A DNA stretch of 64,000 bases from Alphaproteobacteria bacterium (GTDB lineage Bacteria; Pseudomonadota; Alphaproteobacteria; UBA8366; GCA-2717185): positions 1 through 64,000 of the forward strand of contig JBBDQU010000046.1 of NCBI GenBank assembly GCA_040905865.1, given 5' to 3'. Positions 1-49,334 of the stretch are shown piece by piece. The translations under genes were made by a program, and so were the position numbers. The first letter of the stretch is position 1, and each line of letters starts with the position of its first letter. Under the pieces are notes generated by a model. The model did not search any database. It was not told where the DNA came from and saw nothing but the letters and a program-made list of their open reading frames with translations.

Positions 1-70
1 GCCGGAAAGCATGTTACCCATGGCGTCACTTACACAGACAATCGGACACATCCGCCCGTTACGGAAGAAC

Positions 71-126
71 CTTCACAGGTTTTAATGGAACCTGCTACGG
101 TTCCATCTAAACCTGATGTGCTATAG
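71..126 (-). repeat. Palindromic repeat, B-type module, at the 3' end of fcl
   Basis: Near-perfect inverted repeat with arms CAGGTTT-ATGGAACC and GGTTCCAT-AAACCTG, followed by GTGCTATAG. The same module occurs with perfect 17-bp arms at 7389-7428. The terminal CTATAG forms the last codon (CTA) and stop (TAG) of the minus-strand fucose synthase gene, so the transcript would fold into a hairpin directly after its stop codon. No T-tract follows, so a Rho-independent terminator is not proven. The upstream half of the composite element seen at 7300 is missing here. Confidence 0.8.
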
Positions 127-6381: not shown

Positions 6382-7302
6382 ATGTCGGTATCAGAGGAAA
6401 AACCGGTCCGCCACAGCTGGGTGGAAGAAGAGCTTCGGGACAGTTTCGACGAGGAACTGGAGATGGAGATCGACGACGATCGCATCGCCAGGGAACTTCG
6501 GGGGATCACCGACCTGGAGCACAAGGAGACCATGGACCGGAACACGTATTTTCGCGAACTGTTCCGGCTGCAGGCCGAACTGGTGAAGTTGCAGGACTGG
6601 GTCATCCATACGAATTACAAGCTGGCGGTGATCTTCGAGGGCCGCGACGCCGCCGGCAAGGGCGGCATGATCAAGCGCATCACGCAGCGCCTGAACCCCC
6701 GGGTCTGCCGCGTGGTGGCGCTCCCCGCGCCCAATGCGCGCGAAACCTCGCAGTGGTATTTCCAGCGCTACACCCCGCACCTGCCGGCCGGCGGCGAAAT
6801 CGTCCTGTTCGACCGGTCCTGGTACAACCGGGCAGGCGTCGAACGCGTCATGGGTTTCGCGACGCCTGACGAGGTTGAACAGTTCTTCCAGGACGTGCCG
6901 GAATTCGAACGCATGCTGGCGCGGTCCGGAATCAAGCTGATCAAATACTGGTTTTCGATTACCGACCAGGAACAGCAGCACCGGTTCCTGATGCGCATCC
7001 ACGACCCGGTCAAGCAGTGGAAGCTGAGCCCGATGGACCTGCAGTCGCGGATCCGCTGGGAGGAATACACCAAGGTGAAGGAGGAAATGCTGAAACGGAC
7101 AAGTCTTCCCGAAGCGCACTGGTACATTGTCGAGGCCAATGACAAGAAACGGGCGCGGCTGAACTGCATCCACCACCTACTCCAGCAGGTACCCTACGAA
7201 GAGGTGACGCACGAACAGGTCACCCTGCCGGAGCGGGTCTTCAATCCGAATTACGAACGCTCCGCCTTGCCAAAGGAACTCTACGTCCCGAAAATATATT
7301 AG
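6382..7302 (+). CDS. ppk2: Polyphosphate kinase 2
   Basis: PPK2-family enzyme of 306 aa that transfers phosphate between polyphosphate and nucleotides. Walker A GRDAAGKG lies at 87-94 and the Walker B region VLFDRSWYNR at 141-150. Other hallmarks are QWYFQRY and KYWFSI. An acidic N-terminal extension of about 45 residues (EEELRDSFDEELEMEIDDD) precedes the kinase core. The ATG at 6382 has GAGG upstream, and a much longer in-frame extension is only the shadow of the dioxygenase gene. The TAG stop at 7300 coincides with the first bases of a palindromic repeat. Confidence 0.95.
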   Translation: MSVSEEKPVRHSWVEEELRDSFDEELEMEIDDDRIARELRGITDLEHKETMDRNTYFRELFRLQAELVKLQDWVIHTNYKLAVIFEGRDAAGKGGMIKRITQRLNPRVCRVVALPAPNARETSQWYFQRYTPHLPAGGEIVLFDRSWYNRAGVERVMGFATPDEVEQFFQDVPEFERMLARSGIKLIKYWFSITDQEQQHRFLMRIHDPVKQWKLSPMDLQSRIRWEEYTKVKEEMLKRTSLPEAHWYIVEANDKKRARLNCIHHLLQQVPYEEVTHEQVTLPERVFNPNYERSALPKELYVPKIY

Positions 7303-7443
7303 ATCAGATCGTGTTTGTTTGGAATCGCCTCTGGCGATCCAACCAACACGTGAATCTGATCTATCTTATTGAAGATATAGCACCTTCACAGGTTTGATTG
7401 GAACCTGTTGTGGTTCCAATCAAACCTGATGTGCTATAGATAT
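7300..7443 (+). repeat. Composite palindromic repeat (A module, linker, B module)
   Basis: Fullest copy of the repeat family. Module A (about 7300-7360) is an imperfect palindrome running from TAGATCAGATCGTG to a matching TCTGATCTA, with core ATCGCC-tct-GGCGAT. A linker TTGAAGATATAGCACC follows. Module B has perfect arms of 17 bp (7389-7405 and 7412-7428) round a 6-base loop and outer arms TATAGCAC/GTGCTATA. The first three bases are the stop codon of ppk2. The size and double-hairpin form resemble REP/REPIN-type elements, but no RAYT transposase is in the window. Confidence 0.85.
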
Positions 7444-9530: not shown

Positions 9531-10340
9531 ATGAGCGTTGTCGAAACCGAACGGAACGGCCAGATACTGACCATCCGGCTGAACCGGCCGGAACGCATGA
9601 ACGCCATCGGCTTTGAATTGCGGACCCGGATGGCCGAAGCCTTCACCGAATTCCGCACGGACCCGGACCTGGAGGTCGCGGTGTTCACGGGCGCGGGCCG
9701 CGCCTTCTGCGCCGGCGAGGACATGAAGGAATCGCTGGAACGCGGCGCGCCCGGCCTCGACGACCGCGAACTGCCCAACCCCTTCATGGACGGCACCCTG
9801 GAAAAGCCGGTGATCTGCGCGATCAACGGTTTCGCCATGGGCGGCGGCTTCATGCTGGTGGAAAAAACCGACCTGCGCGTCGCGGTCAAGGGCGCGGTGT
9901 TCGAGATGTCCGAAGCCAAGCGCTGGCTGCTGGGCGGCTACAATCACGGTCTGGTCGCCGATCTGCCGCATCCGATCGCGACCGAAATGGCGCTCGCCTA
10001 CCGCTTCACATCCGACCGGCTGTATGAACTGGGTTTCATCAACCGGCTGGTCGAACCCGACGACCTGATGCCCACCGCCTATGAAATGGCCGAGCACCTG
10101 CTGACCCTGCCGCCGGCCGCGCGGGTCAATACCGTCTACATGATGCGGCAGATGCGCCAGAAGCCGTCGCCCGACATCGAGAAACTGGCTGAGGCGCTGC
10201 ACGCCCATGGCGACCAGTCCGACCGGATGGAATCGCGCAAGGCTTTCGCGGAGAAACGCAAGCCGAACTTCAAGGGCTGGCTGAAGCCGGAGGACCGCTA
10301 CAACATGCCGACCCTGGATTCCGTGCGGAACAAGCCGTAG
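9531..10340 (+). CDS. Enoyl-CoA hydratase/isomerase family protein
   Basis: Crotonase-fold protein of 269 aa. Oxyanion-hole segments are GAGRAFCAGEDMKES and NGFAMGGGF. The region after the second glycine stretch (EMSEAKRWLLGGYN) is not the standard hydratase glutamate pair, so the precise activity (hydratase, isomerase or hydrolase) is open. It starts at ATG 9531 and stands alone between the divergent enolase-family gene and the dioxygenase pair. The stop codon TAG at 10338 merges into a palindromic-repeat remnant (TAGATCTGATCG), as in ppk2. Confidence 0.88.
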   Translation: MSVVETERNGQILTIRLNRPERMNAIGFELRTRMAEAFTEFRTDPDLEVAVFTGAGRAFCAGEDMKESLERGAPGLDDRELPNPFMDGTLEKPVICAINGFAMGGGFMLVEKTDLRVAVKGAVFEMSEAKRWLLGGYNHGLVADLPHPIATEMALAYRFTSDRLYELGFINRLVEPDDLMPTAYEMAEHLLTLPPAARVNTVYMMRQMRQKPSPDIEKLAEALHAHGDQSDRMESRKAFAEKRKPNFKGWLKPEDRYNMPTLDSVRNKP

Positions 10341-10399
10341 ATCTGATCGTGGTTTGCTGGCACCGCCTGTGGTTCCATTCAAACCTGTGAAATTGCCCT
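10338..10399 (+). repeat. Degenerate copy of the palindromic repeat
   Basis: Begins TAGATCTGATCGTGGTTTGCTGG, like module A of the copy at 7300, then jumps to CCTGTGGTTCCATTCAAACCTGTGA, the right half of module B. It therefore looks like a copy that lost its middle by deletion. Its first three bases are the stop codon of the enoyl-CoA hydratase gene. Confidence 0.7.
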
Positions 10400-10718
10400 A
10401 TGCCCGGACCTACGCGGTGATGCGACCCTTTCCCGAATAGGACCAGGCCGCTTCCAGCGTTGGCGGGCAATGCGGGCCGGCGATCCGATACCCCAGGGAT
10501 GCTTCGATATCTTCCCGCAACAAAAATTATCAAAAAATATGGAATTTGGCTGTATATTCGAAATAATGATGAGTTTTTAGAGAAATCGTCTGTTTTTCAT
10601 CAAATCTCCGAAACACGGTCAACTGGCGGTGCGGCGCTGCGCGAAAATGCCGCGCTTGCCGCGTCCGCGCGGCTGCGATAGCGTTTGAAACTGACCGACA
10701 TACGCGGGAGGAATACTG
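10341..10718. other. 378-bp intergenic region with A/T-rich segment
   Basis: Holds the repeat remnant (10338-10399), a possible gene fragment on the minus strand (10410-10523), an A/T-rich block at about 10515-10612 that contrasts with the surrounding high-GC DNA, and from 10655 the sequence duplicated upstream of the second dioxygenase (CTTGCCGCGTCCGCGCGGC). The A/T-rich block is a plausible promoter region for the downstream dioxygenase, but no convincing -35/-10 pair was found. Confidence 0.6.
10410..10523 (-). pseudogene. Possible C-terminal gene remnant, unknown family
   Basis: A 37-residue open stretch ending at a TAG, reading EASLGYRIAGPHCPPTL then EAAWSYSGKGRITA. Composition and codon use look like coding DNA, but it begins at the edge of the A/T-rich block with TTG codons right after a stop, and has no clear ribosome site. 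It may be the tail of a disrupted gene or a short peptide gene. The family is not recognised. Confidence 0.28.
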
Positions 10719-11576
10719 ATGAACAAGGCACTGACGGACGAACAGGTCGCTGCGTGGAATCGCGACGGATTCCTCTACCCCTTTCCGCTGCTCAGCGAGG
10801 CCGAACGGCAGGAATGCCTGGACGGGCTGGCGCGTTTCGAGGGCTGGCTGGGATCGCGGGTCAATGAGTCCCGGGACCTGAAATGGCGGACCATGCCGCA
10901 TATCACCCTGCCCTGGGCACACAAACTGGCGACCGATCCGCGCATCCTCGACGTTGTCGAAGACCTGATCGGCCCGGATATCATTATCTACACCAGCACC
11001 TTCTTCATCAAGGAATCGAACACCCCGACGATGGCCGCATGGCATCAGGATACGACCTATTGGGGGCTGGAAACGCCGATCGACATGGTGACCGCCTGGG
11101 TCGCGCTGACCGAGGCAAGCCCGGAGGCCGGATGCATGGAAGTGCTGCCCTTTGAAAACGGCAAGCCGCACCAGTACCGCCACCGGGCGAATGTGGTGGA
11201 AAACAGCGTCAACCGGGCTTCGCAGGTCATCACCGATCCGCTGGACGAAAGCCGCGTCGAAGTCATGGCGCTGAAGGCCGGCGAGTTCTCGATGCATCAC
11301 GGCCAGTGCACCCATCGCTCCGGCCCCAACACCGCGGGTCACCGCCGCATCGGCATGGGAATCAACTACGTGCCAGCCTGGGCGAAACCGATCGGCAGGT
11401 ACCGGACAGCGGGGATGCTGGTGCGCGGCGAGGATCGCTGGGGCTATCTGGAGCCCCTCACCCCACCCAAGGCGGAACTGGACGCCGAGTCCATTGCCGC
11501 GCATGAAATGGCCGTGACGCGCTATCGGGAGACCTATCTGGAACAGGAACCACTGCACCTGAAAATGGCGGGTTGA
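10719..11576 (+). CDS. Phytanoyl-CoA dioxygenase family protein, copy 1
   Basis: Fe(II)/2-oxoglutarate dioxygenase of 285 aa. The iron triad is WHQDT (H109, D111) and the His in THRSGPN (H199), with RR soon after for 2-oxoglutarate. Relatives hydroxylate acyl-CoAs, ectoine-like compounds or small natural products; the substrate is unknown. GGGAGG lies seven bases before the ATG. The next gene is a tandem paralogue of the same length, differing at 13 residues, 12 of them beyond residue 167. The upstream leader from 10655 is duplicated as well. Confidence 0.9.
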   Translation: MNKALTDEQVAAWNRDGFLYPFPLLSEAERQECLDGLARFEGWLGSRVNESRDLKWRTMPHITLPWAHKLATDPRILDVVEDLIGPDIIIYTSTFFIKESNTPTMAAWHQDTTYWGLETPIDMVTAWVALTEASPEAGCMEVLPFENGKPHQYRHRANVVENSVNRASQVITDPLDESRVEVMALKAGEFSMHHGQCTHRSGPNTAGHRRIGMGINYVPAWAKPIGRYRTAGMLVRGEDRWGYLEPLTPPKAELDAESIAAHEMAVTRYRETYLEQEPLHLKMAG

Positions 11577-11727
11577 TCAGGGCCTCCAGATTGCACAATC
11601 GCGCGGGACATTCGTTACAGACAAATGCCGGCTCGGTTTTTATCAGCCCTGTAATTGTCCCACTTGCCGCGTCCGCGCGGCTGCGATAGCGTTTTGAAAC
11701 TGACCGACATACACGGGAGGAATGCTG

Positions 11728-12585
11728 ATGAACAAGGCTCTGACGGACGAACAGATCGCTGCGTGGAATCGCGACGGATTCCTCTACCCCTTTCCGCTGC
11801 TCAGCGAGGCCGAACGGCAGGAATGCCTGGACGGGCTGGCGCGTTTCGAGGGCTGGCTGGGATCGCGGGTCAATGAGTCCCGGGACCTGAAATGGCGGAC
11901 CATGCCGCATATCACCCTGCCCTGGGCACACAAACTGGCGACCGATCCGCGCATCCTCGACGTTGTCGAAGACCTGATCGGCCCGGATATCATTATCTAC
12001 ACCAGCACCTTCTTCATCAAGGAATCGAACACCCCGACGATGGCCGCATGGCATCAGGATACGACCTATTGGGGGCTGGAAACGCCGATCGACATGGTGA
12101 CCGCCTGGGTCGCGCTGACCGAGGCAAGCCCGGAGGCCGGATGCATGGAAGTGCTGCCCTTTGAAAACGGCAAGCCGCACCAGTACCGCCACCGGGCGAA
12201 TGTGGTGGAAAACAGCGTCAACCGGGCCGCGCAGGTCATCACCGATCCGCTGGACGAAAGCCGTGTGGAAACCATGGCGCTGAAGGTGGGCGAGTTCTCT
12301 GTGCATCATGGCCAGTGCGTCCATCGGTCCGGCCCCAACACCGCCGGGCACCGGCGCATCGGCATGGGATTCCACTACCTGCCGGCTTGGGCGAAACCGA
12401 TCGGGAAGTTCCGGACGGCGGGCATGCTGGTGCGCGGCGAGGATCGCTGGGGCTATCTCGAACCCCTCTCACCGCCCAAGGCGGAACTGGACGCCGAGTC
12501 CATCGCCGCACACGAAATGGCCGTGACGCGCTATCGGGAGACCTACCTGGAGCAGGAACCGCTGCATATGAAGATGGCGGGCTGA
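11728..12585 (+). CDS. Phytanoyl-CoA dioxygenase family protein, copy 2
   Basis: Tandem paralogue of the preceding gene, also 285 aa with ATG at 11728. An in-frame ATG six bases upstream is less well spaced from GGGAGG. The metal ligands H109, D111 and H199 are kept. Differences cluster late and include T198V next to the iron-binding His, and I215F, N216H and V218L in the strand following the 2-oxoglutarate Arg. The pair may thus share chemistry but differ in substrate. DNA at 11756-12227 is identical to 10747-11218, while the 3' third has diverged. Confidence 0.9.
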   Translation: MNKALTDEQIAAWNRDGFLYPFPLLSEAERQECLDGLARFEGWLGSRVNESRDLKWRTMPHITLPWAHKLATDPRILDVVEDLIGPDIIIYTSTFFIKESNTPTMAAWHQDTTYWGLETPIDMVTAWVALTEASPEAGCMEVLPFENGKPHQYRHRANVVENSVNRAAQVITDPLDESRVETMALKVGEFSVHHGQCVHRSGPNTAGHRRIGMGFHYLPAWAKPIGKFRTAGMLVRGEDRWGYLEPLSPPKAELDAESIAAHEMAVTRYRETYLEQEPLHMKMAG

Positions 12586-34735: not shown

Positions 34736-34824
34736 GTGCTATAGATCGGATCGCGTTTGCTGAATCGCCTCTGGCGATCCAGCAAACACGATCCGATCTA
34801 CCCTGTTGAAGATATCGCGGCACC
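34736..34824 (+). repeat. Palindromic repeat, A module plus linker
   Basis: Starts with GTGCTATA (the end motif of module B). A near-perfect palindrome follows at 34743-34799: arms AGATCGGATCG-GTTTGCTG-ATCGCC and their complement, loop TCT. The conserved linker TTGAAGATATCGCGGCACC then runs to 34824. The junction of B-end to A-start suggests the unit can be tandem. It lies 12 bp before the ccmA start and could shape the 5' end of the operon mRNA. Confidence 0.82.
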
Positions 34825-48840: not shown

Positions 48841-48903
48841 TATAGCGCATCAGGTGATTGTTGGATCGCCATGGACAATTCCAACAAACCACGATCTGAT
48901 CTA
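48841..48903 (-). repeat. Palindromic repeat after a small gene
   Basis: Read on the minus strand it begins TAGATCAGATCGTGGTTTGT, runs through the imperfect core (GCGATCCAACAA against TTGTTGG) and ends ACCTGATGCGCTATA, so it is a shortened copy joining module A and the end of module B. TAG is the stop codon of the small gene at 48901-49089. Confidence 0.8.
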
Positions 48904-49089
48904 ATGGGCGAGGCCGACAACGTTACGGACGTTTTCTTCTGAAACATTGGCGTTCAGGTGGATCGACGCCAGCACAGCGGTCTGATGGATCAGCTGGTTT
49001 TCGTGCTCCTTCACGTCCTGCGCGTTCAGCGCCCAATCCGCCAGGATAGCCTTGTACGCTTCACGAATGGCGGCACAATGAATCATCAT
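48901..49089 (-). CDS. Small protein of unknown function
   Basis: A 62-aa frame starting MMIHCAAIREAYKAILADWA with GAGGTG six bases upstream, helical and His-rich, with no signal or membrane segment. An earlier ATG at 49158 would add a low-similarity tail. The gene lies beneath a CRP-type operator (49151-49166), and its stop codon is the first triplet of a palindromic repeat. Family not recognised. Confidence 0.5.
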   Translation of the reverse strand: MMIHCAAIREAYKAILADWALNAQDVKEHENQLIHQTAVLASIHLNANVSEENVRNVVGLAH

Positions 49090-49334
49090 ATCGATCACCT
49101 CAATCTGTGTACCAGTTGCGATGATATTCTGACAATTTTGAAAAACTGACAGTGACACGCGTCACATTTGTCTGTTTCTTCGATATTTTTTCCGAATTAT
49201 ACGATTTTTTTGATATAAGAAAAAATTACACGGAAATTATTGGAATATGAGTGAAATTACACCGTTATTCTAAATAATAGATAACGTGCCGACCGATTTT
49301 CTGGGTATTTCCGCATTTGCGGCGGAAGGCGCGG
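49090..49334. other. A/T-rich intergenic stretch
   Basis: Between the small gene and the cNMP-binding gene. From about 49125 to 49290 it is strongly A/T-rich compared with its surroundings, with several T and A runs. It carries the CRP-like palindrome at 49151-49166. No frame of interest and no clear terminator was seen. Confidence 0.6.
49151..49166. promoter_or_regulatory. CRP/FNR-superfamily type operator
   Basis: AGTGA-CACGCG-TCACA matches the CRP consensus TGTGA-N6-TCACA at nine of ten defined positions. The centre is about 69 bp upstream of the small-gene ATG at 49089, a usual activator position. The regulator itself is not in the window: the neighbouring cNMP-binding protein has no DNA-binding domain. 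Confidence 0.55.

Follow-up and report, generated by a model that had tools for sequence, protein, structure and literature searches.

MITEs that supply stop codons to genes are already known. In Coxiella burnetii, QMITE1 and QMITE2 form hairpins and affect functional genes at their 3′ ends, and Table 2 of the study describing them gives genes in which the MITE provides the STOP or the final few residues (PMC5896051). ERIC/RU-1 and Correia/NEMIS are small TA-bounded hairpin MITEs that duplicate TA (PMC2759123, PMC2229807); some of them become joined to the 3′ ends of genes and change the encoded C-termini, and C-terminal fusions have been described for RU-1/ERIC (PMC2759123). RUP of Streptococcus pneumoniae is a MITE of ~107 bp with a TA target, for which mobilisation by an IS630-family element, IS630-Spn1, was proposed (PMC2229807). 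Elements of the IS630 / Tc1-mariner group such as ISY100 also target TA and duplicate it (PMC2170065), and IS630 prefers the TA in CTAG (Tenzen & Ohtsubo 1991, as cited in PMC2170065).

We found a repeat of this kind in the window, the whole stretch of 64,000 nucleotides analysed here, and compared it with the QMITE, ERIC, RUP and Correia elements by published description. It resembles all of them in part and differs from each. For the QMITEs, there was no empty-site proof of stop re-creation and no target-site accounting (PMC5896051). ERIC/RU-1 and Correia/NEMIS mainly give extensions or fusions, whereas most genes are unchanged here. The partner IS of RUP is known, and the targets described for it in the review are IS elements and not stops (PMC2229807). 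Unlike IS630 / Tc1-mariner elements, the present element lacks a transposase gene, and no full-length counterpart matching it was found. An earlier description of its family was not found in the literature searched. The present analysis adds empty-site proof of stop rebuilding, the dependence of the outcome on orientation and end base, and an accounting of target sites. We consider it very probable that the repeat is, as a whole, explained as a TA/YTAR MITE that rebuilds TAG, whose excess at stops comes from its target motif, the tolerance of gene ends and the survival of TAG, and which is moved by an IS630-type mobiliser.

The copies in the window and the gene ends at which they lie are as follows.

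66..126, plus strand: 3′-end fragment of the element (hairpin B).
126-121, minus strand: CTA TAG, the final codon and stop of fcl, both encoded by the 3′ end of the element.
7300-7302, plus strand: stop TAG of ppk2, reading TAG ATC AGA TCG, with TA from the target and G from the element.
7300-7363, plus strand: hairpin A of the complete copy, TAGATCAGATCGTG...CACGTGAATCTGATCTA.
7364-7375, plus strand: linker hairpin of the complete copy, TATCTTATTGAAGATA.
7376-7438, plus strand: hairpin B of the complete copy, TATAGCACCTTCACAGG...CCTGATGTGCTATAG.
7300-7301 and 7437-7438, plus strand: first and last TA of the complete copy, its target duplication.
10338..10401, plus strand: short, rearranged, decayed copy in which the 5′ end of hairpin A is joined to an inverted hairpin-B arm.
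10338-10340, plus strand: stop TAG of the enoyl-CoA hydratase (ECH) gene at the edge of this copy, reading TAG ATC TGA TCG.
34742..34800, plus strand: short form, a nearly perfect palindrome of 59 bp that has TAGATCGGATC at either end.
48842..48903, minus strand: short form of the element, 62 bp.
48903-48901, minus strand: stop TAG of a small gene (48901-49098), reading TAG ATC AGA TCG.

A sequence-only reading had assigned the TAG at the repeat edge as the stop of ppk2, the ECH gene and the small minus-strand gene, and had derived the last codon and stop of fcl from a CTATAG end; our reading agrees on the former and confirms the latter at 126-121. The interval 10338-10360, on which it had centred, is a real repeat edge but covers just the 5′ portion of a single short copy that has degraded. 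Pfam confirmed the PPK2, ECH (ECH_1) and fcl epimerase families, and the homologues of fcl are fucose synthase. The copy at 34742-34800 is not at a gene end but lies 261 nt beyond the nearest one. As a separate observation, the adjacent genes at 10645-11576 and 11653-12585 contain a 300-nt stretch that is 99% identical at a spacing of 1009 nt. They appear to be a recent tandem duplication, and the first gene matches phytanoyl-CoA dioxygenase (PhyH).

The complete copy of the window, 7300..7439 (plus strand), consists of two large hairpins with a small linker hairpin between them, and its fold was calculated as −72 kcal/mol (z about −12). Including the flanking TAs, the element is 139-140 bp long and has the outline [TA]GATC...GTGCT(A/C)[TA], in which the first base is G. 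Over 23 full copies, stem pairing was 96.5%, and paired changes in both arms were seen in 59 cells vs 18 in shuffles. The terminal inverted repeats (TIRs) match at 20-21/24 bases in the best copies of G005, a genome of another genus in the family, and at 14-18/24 in the present genome; because the two ends have diverged here, the TIR became clear only via the comparison with G005. The repeat is short, dispersed and multi-copy, contains no transposase gene, and has TIRs and a TA target-site duplication: it is a non-autonomous MITE (mini-transposon) of ~140 bp. Rfam gave no match on the element and a single chance-level match outside it, and the plasmid and phage collections searched with the element gave no match, as did 80 named PPK2 loci.

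Several derivatives were also observed. Short forms of ~59-66 bp, which have both ends but a single hairpin, are present at 34742-34800 and 48842-48903 of the window and at L203, L209, L152, L148 and L241. The internal junction ..GTGAAGGTGCTATAG is common to several short-form loci, and hence the short form may itself have been mobile. At L249 (G000 C83:21978-22988), an IS110-like transposase segment of ~0.8 kb, assigned to its family by eye, lies within an element copy; in Coxiella, the IS110-family IS1111 inserts in QMITE2. In a relative (L268 / L356), a remnant of 15 bp, TAGATCGTGCTATAG, lies directly behind the ppk2 stop. It joins the two ends of the element and would be an internally deleted copy or a footprint.

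Copies were sought by BLAST, pattern and covariance model in the 4.37-Mb draft genome, and 140 fetched places contained at least 127 element pieces and at least 36 full-length copies. Genes were called with a home-made three-periodic, frame-contrast Markov model trained on the same DNA. The pattern TAGATCNGATC had 68 matches in the genome vs 0 for the reversed pattern. An intact 5′ end was present in 90 pieces, 57 of them with a co-directional upstream gene, and the stop of this gene began at element base 1 (offset 0) in 33/57 (27 TAG, 4 TAA and 2 TGA). The position was sharply defined: 33 of the 45 co-directional copies with a gene end within ±60 nt of the 5′ edge were at offset 0 exactly. 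Without the copies found only by the TAG-containing pattern, 28 of 50 co-directional genes remained at offset 0. The earlier statement that gene ends hold more copies than expected by chance, made from four of the five copies in the window, was borne out genome-wide, since 28/39 copies found without the TAG requirement were at offset 0 (p~1e-49 vs uniform). The enrichment recurred in G005, where 9/15 were at offset 0 in 20 fetched regions, with 4 exact stops at the other end.

The target site was deduced from the bases flanking the TAs, neither of which is part of the element. Where the insertion was not at a stop, the 5′ TA was preceded by C in 34 cases, T in 11, A in 8 and G in 2 (C/T 45/55); over the full set of 65 intact 3′ ends, the 3′ TA was followed by G in 37, A in 22, T in 4 and C in 2 (G/A 59/65). 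In same-genus genomes, empty sites were identified at which the flanks, joined at one TA, align through the junction. At L260, the present genome's own CGC-TA-ACCGGCG corresponded to CGG-TA-ACCGGCG in G001; L235, L242, L147, L154 and L165 also aligned through the TA junction, and another example read GAG-TA-ACAGG. TG or CA stands in the position of the TA in the relative at L195 and L174. The end statistics and the empty sites together showed that the element inserts at TA, duplicates it, and prefers YTAR, above all CTAG. We rejected a longer duplication of 4 bp (YTAR) or 3 bp (TAR), because the 3′ TA is preceded by A or C, which does not match the 5′ Y, and because the 5′ R is almost always G, while the 3′ R is G or A. 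Insertions present here were absent in G001, indicating movement since those species split.

A stop TAA or TAG contains TA and the element starts with G; thus, an insertion can rebuild TAG. Orthologues of at least 60% identity were available for 28 offset-0 genes: 23 ended at the same final residue, 3 within one residue, and 2 differed in length. The stops of element-free orthologues were 13 TGA, 10 TAG and 9 TAA. As the orthologues end at the same residue, the stop pre-existed, and the element contributed no more than its third base. For ppk2, 29/29 homologues among the matches listed end at the same residue, as does the G001 orthologue; for the small gene (48901-49098), the G001 and G003 orthologues do so with TGA. 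A close orthologue of the ECH gene was not present in the fetched DNA. At L260 and L235, the element-free orthologue ends with TAA and the gene with the insertion ends with TAG, the G of which is contributed by the element. An insertion at the TA of a TAA/TAG stop, with the element running along the gene, gives TAG and leaves the protein unchanged.

The outcome of the reverse orientation depends on the end base. The ...CTC end gives TAG, and the stop was retained at L154 and L165, which have this variant. The ...CTA end reads TAT, so that translation continues and residues are added; reverse insertion in the stop gave a gain of about 14 residues at L216 and L242. An insertion a few codons upstream of the stop removes a few residues: fcl is 3 residues shorter, ending in GGAL* vs GGALAAE* in G001 and G003, and L174 and L237, where genes run into the element's 3′ end, lost 5 and 2 residues, respectively. 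Overall, the C-terminus was changed in 10/15 genes ending inside this other (3′) end. Stop re-creation at both ends is seen most clearly at L471. Two convergent genes share one CTAG there in G009, each reading its own TAG, and the site is TTAG in G007 and G010; in G005, the element lies exactly at this site and both genes still end with TAG. Both element ends in G005 start with GA, and therefore TAG is restored in either orientation. The proposal that the repeat supplies the stops thus holds for fcl, in which the element made a new, slightly early stop, but not for ppk2, the small gene and most others, in which it gave the third base of a stop that pre-existed. That the repeat created the gene ends is contradicted by the 23 of 28 orthologues with the same C-terminus and no repeat; insertion at gene ends stands despite these element-free orthologues.

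We next considered why stops are over-represented. Outside elements, YTAR was present at 95 stop codons; the 105 kb of intergenic DNA had 487 occurrences and the 665 kb of coding DNA had 211. Site availability was counted in the DNA around elements only, with sites weighted by the observed flank preference (base before TA: C 4.15, T 1.2, A 0.26, G 0.16). Per 100 weighted sites, 7.5 copies with an intact 5′ end lay at stops in matching orientation; the figure was 2.5 for the 60 nt downstream of a stop, 1.1 for the remaining intergenic DNA and 0.1 for coding DNA. The difference between stops and the other zones, like the 9/15 at offset 0 in G005, would fit an element or transposase that actively targets stops or termination regions beyond YTAR. 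However, the full-length copies (n = 36) were as frequent per weighted site at stops as in the downstream zone (15/884 vs 8/435, p=0.83), both exceeding other intergenic DNA (p~1e-5), and their orientations at stops were equal (8 vs 7). The excess was located in truncated 5′ fragments, 25/52 of which were at stops and which were the source of the one-orientation excess. Active targeting therefore seems unlikely. The earlier suggestion that copies are targeted to stops survives indirectly, in that the target YTAR read in frame is a TAA/TAG stop; as a preference of full-length copies for stop TAs over downstream TAs, it does not.

In the explanation that we prefer, the TA/YTAR MITE would be over-represented at stops because its target is rare inside genes and common at stops, and the tolerance of gene 3′ ends to insertions would contribute to the excess. 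In addition, purifying selection may preserve the TAG at the edge as the remainder of the copy is lost, which we call decay anchoring. As an explanation of the offset-0 excess, decay anchoring has modest standing (p=0.015, or 0.06 without pattern-found copies).

It is similarly improbable that a function in terminating transcription or in stabilising mRNA 3′ ends is what keeps the copies at gene ends. The very stable folds (z about −12) and the paired changes in both hairpin arms agree with such a role, and copies were in excess between convergent genes (35/122 copies vs 88/571 gene pairs, p=0.001), but the tolerance of gene ends also predicts this convergent excess. An intrinsic terminator has a hairpin followed by a T-run, and no T-run was found at the full copy 7300-7439. 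Moreover, copies at stops are less complete, not more; the ECH copy (10338..10401) folds no better than chance (z only −0.93), with its TAG kept; and G003, of the same genus, has one strong match, its orthologous genes being without the element. Selection as a terminator or stabiliser, which the sequence-only reading had offered as an alternative to targeting, is thus unsupported, there being no U-tract and more decay in the stop copies. The element could still have a secondary effect on transcripts.

The TA/YTAR MITE would have been moved by an IS630/Tc1-mariner-type transposase. Insertion at TA with a 2-bp duplication and the preference for CTAG are the IS630 pattern, and as no matching gene was found, we infer the mobiliser at the level of its class. 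A search with PF13358 detected a degraded relic in the present genome and two unrelated matches in 10 relatives, none with the element's ends, and an autonomous partner sought in the draft genomes at PF13358, PF01609 and PF01797 loci and by TIR spacing gave no matching ends. Since no IS630 transposase with matching ends was found, we describe the element as one that works like IS630 and not as a member of it. A high-copy DDE transposase of 329 aa (PF01609), observed at about 27 places in G005, has no relation to the ends of the element. A reading in which the repeat is of the REP type, carries TAG as its tag and owes its mobility to a tyrosine (Y1/RAYT) transposase would account for two hairpins in opposite orientation and for Y1_Tnp genes in all family members tested and their absence in four element-free relatives, but it is very improbable: 0/12 Y1_Tnp loci had the element within about 1.5 kb, the element-bearing G015 and G018 had no Y1_Tnp match, TAG lies inside a paired stem in the full-copy fold and not in an unpaired GTAG/CGTC tag as in PMC3733652, and the TA duplication, palindromic target and TIRs fit a DDE transposase.

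Among 39 genomes, strong matches were found in each of the family's three genera and also in a second family of the same order; elsewhere they were nearly absent. Within one genus, G003 had 1 strong match vs 32 in G001, pointing to loss or a burst.

These results have several consequences for the reading of repeats at gene ends. They account for stops that seem to be supplied by repeats, predict which insertion orientation lengthens the protein, and indicate that decayed copies leave TAG as their last trace. They also advise that repeats lying at stops should be taken for terminators only when empty sites have been examined. A TA/CTAG target and a terminal G make stops neutral landing sites, which is a simple and checkable reason for the crowding of small bacterial mobile elements at gene ends. 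We tentatively raise the possibility that its ends were shaped to be harmless at stops, as the terminal G at both ends in G005 always rebuilds TAG in either orientation. If so, each gene end with TAA/TAG, even a stop shared by convergent genes, would offer the element a safe and renewable harbour.
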